From positions 1 through 58,850 of the forward strand of contig MHBH01000086.1 in NCBI GenBank assembly GCA_001804805.1: a DNA stretch of 58,850 nt, written 5' to 3'. Under the pieces are notes generated by a model that saw only the letters and a list, made by a program, of their open reading frames with translations, ran no database searches and was not told where the DNA came from. The stretch is from Lentisphaerae bacterium GWF2_49_21. Its GTDB lineage: Bacteria > Verrucomicrobiota > Lentisphaeria > Victivallales > GWF2-50-93. This document shows positions 1,676 through 48,888 of the stretch, in pieces. Each line of letters opens with the position of its first letter. Positions within the stretch are counted from its first letter, which is position 1. A program made the position numbers and the translations under genes.

Positions 1676-1747
1676 GCTTGTAGTTAAGCCATTATTGGCT
1701 GTGTTATTTTAGGCAAGGAAACACGCAAAAATGCGTTAACTACAAGC
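1676..1747. repeat. 72-bp element with 12-bp inverted ends (TTAACTAC family)
   Basis: The ends GCTTGTAGTTAA and TTAACTACAAGC are perfect inverted repeats. Inside each end lies a small hairpin: AGCCA/TGGCT on the left and ACGCA/TGCGT on the right. A second copy with the same ends is at 48586-48658. Reading outward-in, each half is GTAGTTA followed by a hairpin, which is the REP layout. The 1530-1888 gap has no gene; apart from this element and the half-element at 1809 I see nothing in it. Confidence 0.75.
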
Positions 1748-1808
1748 AAATGCATCAAGGGAGTTCCTGCGGATGTTCTTATCAAGAGTAGGGGGCGGGC
1801 GATTCAAA

Positions 1809-1843
1809 GAACAGCTCTTGCGAGCTTAACTACAAACGAATTC
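1809..1843. repeat. Single half-element of the TTAACTAC family
   Basis: GAACA, an AGCTC-TTGC-GAGCT hairpin and TTAACTACAAACGAA match one arm of the paired element at 3517-3598. No clear partner arm follows. Confidence 0.65.
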
Positions 1844-1888
1844 AAAATCGTTTTTTCTTCGATTGTTCGTAATTCGTCATTCGACTGT

Positions 1889-3469
1889 TCAATTCCCGCC
1901 TATGGCGGCAAGCCTCTTCAGCGTTCTTTCCCTGCCCAGCATTTCCATCGTCTCGTAGATTCCGGCGCCGGTGGTCTGTCCGGTGACGGCAATCCTCAAG
2001 GGCTGGTTCAGCTTGCCTTCCTGGATTCCGGAGAGGTTTTCGGACTCTCTTATAAATTTTTGCAGCACATCAATATTGAAATCGCTGGACGCCTCAATCA
2101 GCTCACTGATCTTCCTTATGGCTGATTTGACATTTGCATCCTGCAAAAATTTATTGACGGCCTTGCCGTCCTTCTCGTATTCGTCGAAGAAGAAGAATTT
2201 CCACGCGGAGACCTGCGGGAAAAGCTTTGTGCGTGACTGCATCAGGCCTGCGACTTTCGCAAAATATACCTGGTCGATGCCGGCCGTCCAGCCCTGTGAT
2301 TCCGCGACCTTCCAGATCTCGTCTGCGAACTTCGCAGGAGAGATTTCCGCCATGTACTGTCCGTTCATGTTTCCGAGCTTGTTCATGTCGAACTGGGCCG
2401 ATGAACTCTTGACGCGCTCAAGTGTGAACGCGTCGATGATCTCCTTACGGGTCATCTTTTCGCGGTCGTCGCCGGGAGACCAACCGAGCAGGGAGAGATA
2501 ATTGAAGAGGGCGTCGGGCAGATATCCCTTGCTCCTGAAATCGCCGACATAGGCGTCGCCGTCGCGTTTGCTGTACGGTTTGCCGGACTGGTTCACGATC
2601 ATCGGAAGATGTGCGTAGAGAGGCACCGGATATCCGATTGCACGGAACAGGAAGATGTGGCGGTACGTGTTCTCGACGTGGTCGTCGCCGCGGACGATGT
2701 GCGTTATCTTCTGTTCGACGTCGTCGCAGACGTTCGCAAGATGGAAGACAGGCGTGCCGTCGCCGCGGACGATCACGAGATCCTTCATGCTGTCGAGAGG
2801 TTTTGCGAGTTCGCCCTTGATGATGTCCTTGAACACGATTTCACGCCTCTGGAAGATGAGTTTTGCGGAATTCGCAATTTCAAACGTGGCGTCCTTCTTG
2901 AATATGTTCTCGATCTCCTTCTCGATTTCGAAGAGGCATTTGCCTGTGGAGTCAAGGATCTTGAGCTGGTGGTATCCGGCAAGCGACGCCGAACGCTCCG
3001 TCGATTTCCCTTTTTCGTTCAGCTGTGAGAAATGGATCCCCGAACTGCTGATCTTCACTGGTGCAGCAGGATCAACCTGTAGTTCGGCGGGACCGGCGAT
3101 CCTCACGTCTGGATTATCATCGGTGTACCAGGGCAGTTTGAAAATTATCGGGGCGGGTTCGGGACCGGCAACCTTTGGACGGAATGCTTTTCCGTCCAAG
3201 AGCATTTTTTCAGCGGCCTTGAGGTGGGCGGCGGCATTCTTGCTCTGGTAGAAGATTTCTTCGTCGTAGTCAATACCGAGCCATTTCATGCATTCGAGCA
3301 GCGTATCGATGGCAGCCTGTGTCGAGCGTTCCCTGTCGGTGTCCTCGACGCGCAGGAGGAACTTGCCTCCGGAATGCCTTGCGAAAAGCCAGTCGAAGAT
3401 GGCGGTCCTGATATTCCCGATGTGAACGTGGCCCGTAGGCGACGGCGCGAATCTAACTCTGATATCCAT
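1889..3469 (-). CDS. gltX: Glutamyl-tRNA synthetase
   Basis: This 526-residue class I synthetase charges tRNA-Glu in the cytoplasm. The N-terminal catalytic core is clear: FAPSPTGHVHIGN (the HIGH region, residues 7-19), VEDTDRER at 41-48, the HIVRGDDHVENT block near 257-268, and KPYSKRDGD (the KMSKS loop) at 297-305. The C-terminal anticodon-binding part runs from about 330. The segment between GKAF (residue 96) and FKDIIKGEL (213) is unusual. The CxC and RYDGRC stretch normal in bacterial GltX is missing, and about 95 residues of unfamiliar sequence follow IIFKLPW. The protein is therefore longer than the usual 465-490 residues. A repeat pair lies upstream, with no other gene in the transcript. 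Confidence 0.95.
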   Translation of the reverse strand: MDIRVRFAPSPTGHVHIGNIRTAIFDWLFARHSGGKFLLRVEDTDRERSTQAAIDTLLECMKWLGIDYDEEIFYQSKNAAAHLKAAEKMLLDGKAFRPKVAGPEPAPIIFKLPWYTDDNPDVRIAGPAELQVDPAAPVKISSSGIHFSQLNEKGKSTERSASLAGYHQLKILDSTGKCLFEIEKEIENIFKKDATFEIANSAKLIFQRREIVFKDIIKGELAKPLDSMKDLVIVRGDGTPVFHLANVCDDVEQKITHIVRGDDHVENTYRHIFLFRAIGYPVPLYAHLPMIVNQSGKPYSKRDGDAYVGDFRSKGYLPDALFNYLSLLGWSPGDDREKMTRKEIIDAFTLERVKSSSAQFDMNKLGNMNGQYMAEISPAKFADEIWKVAESQGWTAGIDQVYFAKVAGLMQSRTKLFPQVSAWKFFFFDEYEKDGKAVNKFLQDANVKSAIRKISELIEASSDFNIDVLQKFIRESENLSGIQEGKLNQPLRIAVTGQTTGAGIYETMEMLGRERTLKRLAAIGGN

Positions 3470-3516
3470 AAATTCCTTTTGTAAATAAATTTTCTTCTAA
3501 AATATGAATACATGAA

Positions 3517-3598
3517 GAACACGTCTTGCGACGTTAACTACAAACGAACGACAAGATGAATTGAATATGTTCGTAGTTAAGCTCGCAAGAGCTGTTCC
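3517..3598. repeat. Inverted pair of TTAACTAC-family elements
   Basis: The left arm (GAACA, ACGTC-TTGC-GACGT hairpin, TTAACTACAAACGA) and the right arm (RC: GAACA, AGCTC-TTGC-GAGCT, TTAACTACGAACA) are inverted copies about 20 bases apart. The two stems differ in sequence yet both pair, and the flanks are constant. It lies between gltX and the oxidoreductase fusion, whose genes run in the same direction. Confidence 0.75.
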
Positions 3599-5641: not shown

Positions 5642-5664
5642 TTATACTCCTTAAGATTAAAATT

Positions 5665-5773
5665 GAATAACCAATGTCCAACAAGGAATTTCCAATGTCC
5701 AACGAAACTCAAATGCACTATCTTACAGAACTTACTTCATCATTCGATATTCCTTGTTCGATATTGGATATTC
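5665..5773. repeat. Inverted-repeat element with 33-bp arms (CCAATGTCC family)
   Basis: The arm at 5665-5697 (GAATAACCAATGTCCAACAA and so on) and the arm at 5741-5773 are inverted relative to each other, with only a few mismatches. The spacer is 43 bases. The element fills the gap between two minus-strand genes. It has the form of a miniature inverted-repeat element or paired REP, without a GTAG signature. Confidence 0.6.
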
Positions 5774-8428: not shown

Positions 8429-8429
8429 G

Positions 8430-8469
8430 GTACGTATTCAGTAAACTATGTCGTTTACTTAATCCGTAC
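8430..8469. repeat. Long palindrome, GTAAAC-GTTTAC family
   Basis: Arms of 17 bases (GTACGTATTCAGTAAAC and GTTTACTTAATCCGTAC) pair with two mismatches around a 6-base loop. The element starts just after the stop codon. A second copy with the same core lies at 52651-52690. Confidence 0.65.
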
Positions 8470-8512
8470 TAAAAATAAAATGCAAAATCACTCCTTTTAT
8501 GATTTATTAGAT

Positions 8513-8552
8513 GTAAATATTCACTGAAGGACATGCTTCAGTGAATATTTAC
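8513..8552. repeat. Perfect 17-bp hairpin
   Basis: GTAAATATTCACTGAAG pairs perfectly with its complement across a 6-base loop (GACATG). It sits 30 bases ahead of the hydrolase start. It may end the upstream transcript or be a mobile hairpin. There is no T-run. Confidence 0.55.
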
Positions 8553-8581
8553 CAGTGACTAATCGAGCAAGGATCCGGCCG

Positions 8582-17431: not shown

Positions 17432-17435
17432 GTTT

Positions 17436-17655
17436 TTATGTCACCGCCCTGCGGGGGCTTGATTGTTTTGGAAATATATTACCCATGGCTCGCGCCATGG
17501 GCTATAATATGTCGCCTCCTGCGGAGGCTATCAAAAGGAATGTATGATTCAAGCCCTAGCAGAGGGCGGAATATTGTAGCCCCATGCGAAGCGTGGGGGT
17601 AGGAAAAAGACAAAAAATATAAGCCTCCGCAGGATGGCGACATAAGCGAATGGCA
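17436..17655. repeat. Block of nested hairpin elements between the phosphatase and rpiB-glyA
   Basis: At least three hairpin types are packed together: CCGCCCTGCGGGGGC near 17443, CCCATGG/CCATGGG near 17481-17501, and a GTAG followed by CCCCATGCGAAGCGTGGGG at 17576-17598. The outer parts repeat in inverted order: the words GTCGCCTCCTGCGGAGGC and CCGCCCT return as complements near 17550-17640. The 17432-17688 gap holds nothing else. This is a compound REP/BIME cluster. Confidence 0.65.
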
Positions 17656-20747: not shown

Positions 20748-20819
20748 GAGTAGGGACGGGCTTTAGCCTGTCCCATTCTTGAAGACGAAGATGGTACATG
20801 CTGAAGCACGTACCTACTC
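20748..20819. repeat. Inverted pair of GTAGG-hairpin elements (GCTTTAGC family)
   Basis: Left arm GAGTAGGGACGGGCTTTAGC and right arm (RC) GAGTAGGTACGTGCTTCAGC each have GTAG followed by a hairpin with a TTTA or TTCA loop. The pair lies five bases after the serS stop. Other copies are at 36697-36768 and 48708-48822. Confidence 0.75.
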
Positions 20820-21237: not shown

Positions 21238-21267
21238 AGAACATGCCTTGCGGCATTAACTACGGGC
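21238..21267. repeat. Single half-element of the TTAACTAC family
   Basis: GAACA, the ATGCC-TTGC-GGCAT hairpin and TTAACTAC. The stem differs from all other copies but pairs fully. It lies just ahead of the lipoprotein start. Confidence 0.65.
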
Positions 21268-36696: not shown

Positions 36697-36768
36697 AAGT
36701 AGGGACGGGCTTTAGCCTGTCCCAATCATAATAGCATTGATGGTACATGCTAAAGCACGTACCTACTT
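36697..36768. repeat. Inverted pair of GTAGG-hairpin elements overlapping a stop codon
   Basis: The arms AAGTAGGGACGGGCTTTAGC and (RC) AAGTAGGTACGTGCTTTAGC match with three mismatches in 24 bases. The right arm overlaps the last codons of the DUF2851 gene, and its GTAG contains the gene's TAG stop. Confidence 0.75.
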
Positions 36769-48585: not shown

Positions 48586-48658
48586 GCTTGTAGTTAAGCC
48601 ATTATTGGCTGTGATTCACTTGATTGGGAAAACACGCAAGAATGCGTTAACTACAAGC
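48586..48658. repeat. Second 73-bp TTAACTAC-family element
   Basis: Ends GCTTGTAGTTAA and TTAACTACAAGC are identical to the copy at 1676-1747, and the hairpins (AGCCA/TGGCT and ACGCA/TGCGT) are kept. The central part has changed. It lies between the hydrolase promoter and the next repeat. Confidence 0.75.
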
Positions 48659-48707: not shown

Positions 48708-48822
48708 AAGTAGGTACGGGCTTTCGGTGTCCGGCGTAGCCTTTGGCGAAGTCAGAAGGATGCACCATTCTTAATTCTTAAAATTCCAAAATTCTGGTAC
48801 AGCCTAAAGGCCGTACCTACTT
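48708..48822. repeat. GTAGG-hairpin pair with an inserted second repeat
   Basis: AAGTAGGTACGGGCTTT at the left and (RC) AAGTAGGTACGGCCTTTAGG at the right are the ends of the GCTTTAGC family. The left hairpin is broken by about 40 bases with GTAGCCTTTGGCGAAG wording, which resembles the block near 675-700. So one element seems to have landed in another. The remainder of the gap to 48888 is without features. Confidence 0.6.
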
Positions 48823-48888
48823 AACGCGCAAATCCACCAATGGTAAACAATCATCGAATTTCAGTTTCCCATTGATGTCAAGAATCAG

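Follow-up and report, generated by a model that had tools for sequence, protein, structure and literature searches.

REP repeats are very short DNA elements that a partner enzyme, the RAYT transposase, presumably copies to new places within a bacterial genome. In the GTAG superfamily, which comprises families GTAG-1 to GTAG-24, REPs with a GTAG foot, sub-families with complementary stems, HH and TT dimers and heterodimers have already been described, and the reason why heterodimers predominate was left open (PMC3733652). RAYT-REP co-evolution (PMC2817692) and REPs that remain after the loss of their RAYT (PMC3686654) have also been described. In the closest case studied biochemically, the Marinomonas REP with its 5-bp stem and 4-nt loop, mismatches seriously reduce cleavage while changes to most stem letters are tolerated; in the loop, positions 1, 2 and 4 are essential whereas position 3 is free (Corneloup 2021, PMC8266576).

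We analyzed a stretch of 58,850 nucleotides from Lentisphaerae bacterium GWF2_49_21, hereafter the window. It contains hairpins that, judging from sequence, are very probably REP sequences of the GTAG superfamily, in two related families that each flank one RAYT gene and would have been spread by RAYTs. This is a known kind of system in a new example: two REP families, with their RAYTs, from a single Lentisphaerae-type genus that has received little study. Like the REPs of PMC3733652, these elements have a GTAG foot, a short palindrome, complementary stem sub-families and HH/TT heterodimers, and they are intergenic and present in high copy number; they differ in their 5-bp stem, 3-nt TYA spacer, TTNT or GNRA loops and host, a Lentisphaerae-group genus. 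With the group-3 REPtron Mb of Marinomonas sp. MWYL1 (PMC8266576) they share a perfect 5-bp palindrome set apart from GTAG, a 4-nt loop whose third position is free and a single REP-flanked RAYT. The spacer of Mb is 2 nt long and its loop is TTTA, against a 3-nt spacer and TTNT or GNRA loops here. REPINs and BIMEs (PMC3116915; E. coli BIME, TnpA-REP 4ER8) similarly use an inverted REP pair with two arm types as a unit, but here HH and TT families occur side by side and the stems carry no bulges. The REP papers searched for the name Lentisphaerae do not contain it (0 occurrences in PMC3733652).

Hairpins and other repeats in the window

The genome of the window (G000, 95% complete) was compared with three sister genomes of the same genus: G001 (Lentisphaerae bacterium GWF2_50_93), G002 and G003. 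A covariance model built from copies of the genus found exactly 8 hairpins in the window (E-values 1.5e-7 to 5.3e-6), distributed over the five places at which the first-pass annotation had located its copies (Table 1). All have the layout GTAGTTA, 5-bp stem, 4-nt loop. The word TTAACTAC, which is GTAGTTAA in the opposite reading direction, occurs 8 times in the window against 0.39 expected in shuffles, and a count of at least 8 was reached in 0/100 shuffles. The several inverted pairs claimed earlier correspond to three dimers, two HH and one TT. The proposed order of GTAG, TTA and hairpin was confirmed, but the loop said to be often GCAA is so in only 4/8 hairpins, all of class B (defined below); the others have TTAT, TTTT or TTCT.

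Table 1. REP hairpins and dimers of the window
Feature	Position	Strand	Basis or context
Class A HH dimer (GTAG ends outside) plus 4-nt GCTT ends	1676..1747	.	Covariance model, dimer survey
Class A hairpin AGCCA-TTAT-TGGCT	1680-1704	+	First arm of 1676..1747 dimer
Class A hairpin ACGCA-TTTT-TGCGT	1719-1743	-	Second arm of 1676..1747 dimer
Class B single REP GTAGTTA-AGCTC-GCAA-GAGCT-GTTC	1809..1833	-	Sequence, covariance model
Class B TT dimer (GTAG ends inside)	3517..3597	.	Covariance model, dimer survey
Class B ACGTC hairpin	3517-3541	-	Arm of 3517..3597 TT dimer
Class B AGCTC hairpin	3573-3597	+	Arm of 3517..3597 TT dimer
Class B single REP GTAGTTA-ATGCC-GCAA-GGCAT-GTTC	21239..21263	-	Sequence, covariance model
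Class A HH dimer	48586..48658	.	Covariance model, dimer survey
Class A hairpin AGCCA-TTAT-TGGCT	48590-48614	+	Arm of 48586..48658 dimer
Class A hairpin ACGCA-TTCT-TGCGT	48630-48654	-	Arm of 48586..48658 dimer

Other repeats were also seen in the window. A third dimer family, at 20750-20817, 36699-36766 and 48710-48824, consists of GTAGGGACGGGC-TTTA-GCCTGTCCC facing GTAGGTACGTGC-TTYA-GCATGTACC (an HH heterodimer); about 40 copies similar to it are among the matches listed in G001. This family may belong to the RAYT at locus L015 (C9), which GTAGG-type sites adjoin. An inverted pair headed by GGAG (GGAGTGCGGCACYCCTGTGCCGC) lies at 83-192, and the same type flanks RAYT L097 (C63). No known Rfam RNA was found at the hairpins; the sole match in the window, Acido-Lenti-1 (40.6 bits, 17482-17529), is away from them, inside a repeat (17435-17645) dispersed in all three sister genomes, and in this genome the motif may represent an element that is mobile or multicopy. 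Further dispersed repeats common to the sister genomes are found at 8429-8553 (up to 95-96% identity), 5660-5773 and 609-756.

Two classes of paired stems and their dimers

Statistics were collected from 1.59 Mb of the 5.9 Mb of G000, together with pattern counts over the whole genome. The hairpins form two stem classes, each with two arm types. Class A has stems AGCCA or ACGCA and a TTNT loop; class B has stems AGCTC, ACGTC, AGCCC, ATGCC, ATGTC and rarer ones (AGCYC or AYGYC and variants) and a GNRA loop. This loop variation resembles the loop rule of the Marinomonas REP. Read from GTAG, the order of both classes is GYTY-GTAG-TYA-stem(5)-loop(4)-stem(5)-GT, with GTAG 5' of the palindrome in all copies. 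The flank of the stem is rigid: a G at -4 in 129/129 copies is followed by Y, T (in nearly all), GTAG, T, Y and A. The 1.59-Mb sample contains 285 GTAGTYA words, and the pairing behind them is bimodal, as a perfect 5-bp stem follows 130 (129 of them the REPs) and the rest are mostly unpaired.

When copies in this sample were picked by flanks and loop with the stem ignored, pairing was perfect (5/5) in 55/60 class A and 69/74 class B copies, or 124/134 together, which bears out the earlier claim that each stem keeps pairing. Because only flanks and loop were used for this choice, the pairing is not an artefact of selecting paired copies; alignment A3 was assembled by hand out of copies already known to pair, and its 100% pairing was excluded from the evidence. 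The covariation test called for by the first-pass annotation was carried out on 43 distinct class B rows, also chosen blind to the stem, and was positive: the score was 0.552, compared with 0.182 for shuffled rows and at most 0.095 in a slid control. In the same rows, 96.7% of cells were paired (75.2 +/- 2.1 shuffled) and both sides had changed in 44 cells (15.3 shuffled). It should be noted that class B rows are related copies, so that shuffle counts are not probabilities and the slid control can be relied on more safely. Together, the shuffles of the window, the stem-blind pairing and the covariation rule out chance as the origin of the hairpins.

The copies are far from the very few that had been considered as a possible outcome, with hundreds in G000. 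Whole-genome pattern counts gave 121 class A copies in G000, 64 in G001, 1 in G002 and 28 in G003, and 163, 126, 44 and 31 class B copies, respectively. Both classes in G000 reach the high copy number of GTAG-superfamily REPs (about 100 or more per genome), and a reversed-pattern control gave zero matches for both. The class A and B patterns were found in 0/56 other genomes of the family and order and are confined to the genus (4 genomes); the covariance model, run on four other genomes of the same family, gave no match among the candidates scored (at most 150 per genome).

Most class A copies in the 1.59-Mb sample (46/56) lie in HH dimers whose arms are 59-65 bp apart, and these join AGCCA to ACGCA in 23/23 cases. 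In class B, 36/73 copies lie in TT dimers, 17/18 of which combine an AGC-type with an AYG-type stem, an imperfect AGTCC/GGGCT stem being scored as AGC-type. The dimers form units of 70-90 nt that recur at unlinked sites between genes, and the similarity among unlinked copies mostly ends 0-8 nt past the GTAG ends of the unit, with longer common flanks in a few pairs. The five stems noted in the window do not represent five independent lineages, as they sort by loop into two classes and by dimer position into two arm types. The two options first put forward, several lineages or a selected structure, both hold in part: classes A and B are two lineages that each flank their own RAYT, and within each class the stems follow the dimer arms.

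With DNA energy parameters, nine real class A dimers gave -8.6 to -9.3 kcal/mol for two hairpins and -6.6 to -12.9 kcal/mol for an end-paired or long form, so the two folds are of roughly equal stability. In virtual class A homodimers, one long hairpin was calculated to be strongly favoured, at about -24 to -26 kcal/mol. Partner stems would thus be kept unlike at stem positions 2-3 (GC versus CG or TG), so that the inverted arms would not anneal into one long hairpin and both small hairpins would stay available. From this calculation on nine dimers, we infer that selection against arm annealing may lie behind the dimer rule.

Genomic positions

ORFs of at least 250 aa cover 76% of the sample yet hold only 2/56 class A and 7/73 class B copies, so the elements are extragenic. 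Class A copies lie between convergent genes in 20/51 cases, compared with 126/826 background pairs. At orthologous places of the sister genomes, the copies at 1676-1843 and 3517-3597 are absent (the latter in G001), the intergenic DNA at these places in G001 and G002 having diverged too far to show a clean empty site. At 21239-21263, the copy is unaligned in G001 but its 25-nt core stands unchanged in the corresponding position of G003; inheritance or selection would explain this as readily as mobility. For 48586-48658, only the ACGCA arm is recognizable at the likely orthologous place in G001.

The intergenic location, the excess of class A between convergent genes and the copy conserved in place in G003 could also be read as signs of RNA elements (terminators, mRNA stabilizers or processing sites) selected at gene ends, with a secondary link to RAYTs; the GNRA loops of class B, set on a C-G pair, would be stable in RNA. 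We regard this as highly improbable: the stems have only 5 bp and no fixed U-run behind them, no Rfam family matches at the hairpins, most surveyed positions are not common to the sister genomes, neither the fixed GYTY-GTAG nor the dimer rule requires a role in RNA, and the same hairpins flank RAYT genes.

RAYT genes and their hairpins

Twenty Y1 transposase matches were found in G000 (loci L001-L020), most of them RAYT-like. One of these, L017 (C7:24942-25532), has class A HH dimers on both sides; this is the RAYT between matching hairpins that had been proposed as a search target. It scores 83.4 bits against NCBIfam REP_Tyr_transpos (NF047646; cut-off 80), and the only solved structure matched by its family profile is E. 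coli TnpA-REP 4ER8 (E 1e-11). The RAYT alignment (A1) contains the HYH and YIxxNP motifs (HUH and tyrosine domain). The REP-type layout recognized earlier is that of GTAG-type REPs. The G001 orthologue, L169, is 75% identical to L017 and flanked by the same class A stems. A distinct RAYT in G001, L171 (G001:C56:43817-44407), has class B hairpins on both sides and is 50-52% identical to the class A RAYTs L017 and L169. A RAYT flanked by its own REP family, or REPtron, is thus found for class A in G000 and G001, and for class B only in G001.

In the RAYT tree, the class A, class B and GTAGTA-GCGCA RAYTs fall in one well supported clade (96/99). The surveyed members of this clade bear GTAG-headed REPs, and GGAG-headed RAYTs fall outside; RAYT L113, also GTAG-headed, lies outside the clade as well, in an unresolved part of the tree. 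REP-like hairpins headed by GGAG, not GTAG, accompany RAYTs L019, L020, L115-L121 and L164-L166 (Lentisphaerae, Verrucomicrobia, Planctomycetes), and the word GGAG was absent from the REP papers searched. The RAYT at L019:1354-1947(-) has a tyrosine in place of the first HUH histidine (NYYH) and is possibly inactive. With about 20 Y1 genes, several with clearly different REP types, G000 offers a good set for the study of enzyme-hairpin specificity.

No orthologue of L171 was found in G000 (95% complete), G002 or G003, the best G000 match being the class A RAYT at 50%. Ownership of class B by other Y1 genes of G000 was rejected, as the flanks of the other listed RAYTs carry different REP types where any were seen. 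Class B in G000 therefore seems to have lost its own enzyme or to use another, its copies being either remnants of a lost enzyme's activity or substrates on which the class A RAYT acts in trans. Decay would be expected if the enzyme were gone, but it does not stand out: imperfect stems make up 5/74 of class B and 5/60 of class A in G000. For class B in G001, which has the enzyme, they number 6 among 100 listed, and in G003 6/34 (by eye, with wobble pairs scored as imperfect). This may reflect a recent loss, use by another RAYT, a gene that was missed, or selection.

That the class A RAYT mobilizes class B in G000, both classes being substrates of one enzyme, would account for 163 copies no more decayed than class A where no class B RAYT was found, and the two classes share the GYTY-GTAGTYA head, the geometry and the AGC/AYG arm rule. 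We nevertheless think it unlikely. The classes have different loops and closing pairs, and in the group-3 enzymes tested it is the loop that determines recognition; a distinct RAYT with class B hairpins exists in G001; G002 has 44 class B copies, 1 class A copy and no class A RAYT that we could find; published RAYTs are each paired with their own REP family; and the class B gene may sit in a gap of the incomplete G000 assembly.

The preferred reading is thus of two REP families, each with its own RAYT, and mobilization by these enzymes is inferred from sequence. A RAYT, as a single-strand HUH/Tyr nuclease, would bind its cognate REP as a folded top strand, contacting GTAG, the perfect stem and the loop letters, and a cut near the REP would let the unit spread within the genome. 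Stems would be free to change by compensating pairs because their letters probably matter less than pairing and loop. We hold it possible, though rather doubtful, that two things apply jointly: that the stem covariation of REP dimers is driven by selection against annealing at positions 2-3, and that class B, lacking a RAYT of its own, is kept in use by a second RAYT or by a host function.

These results extend the known REPs by two well-defined families, together with their RAYTs, from a phylum that has been poorly studied. Strict heterodimers in both polarities would give a simple and testable answer to the question of why heterodimers predominate (PMC3733652). The natural variation over hundreds of copies mirrors test-tube selection on a group-3 TnpA-REP, in which pairing and loop count and stem letters hardly do. 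Finally, a genus in which four species carry class B copies but the enzyme was found in just one provides a natural test of what becomes of REPs after enzyme loss.
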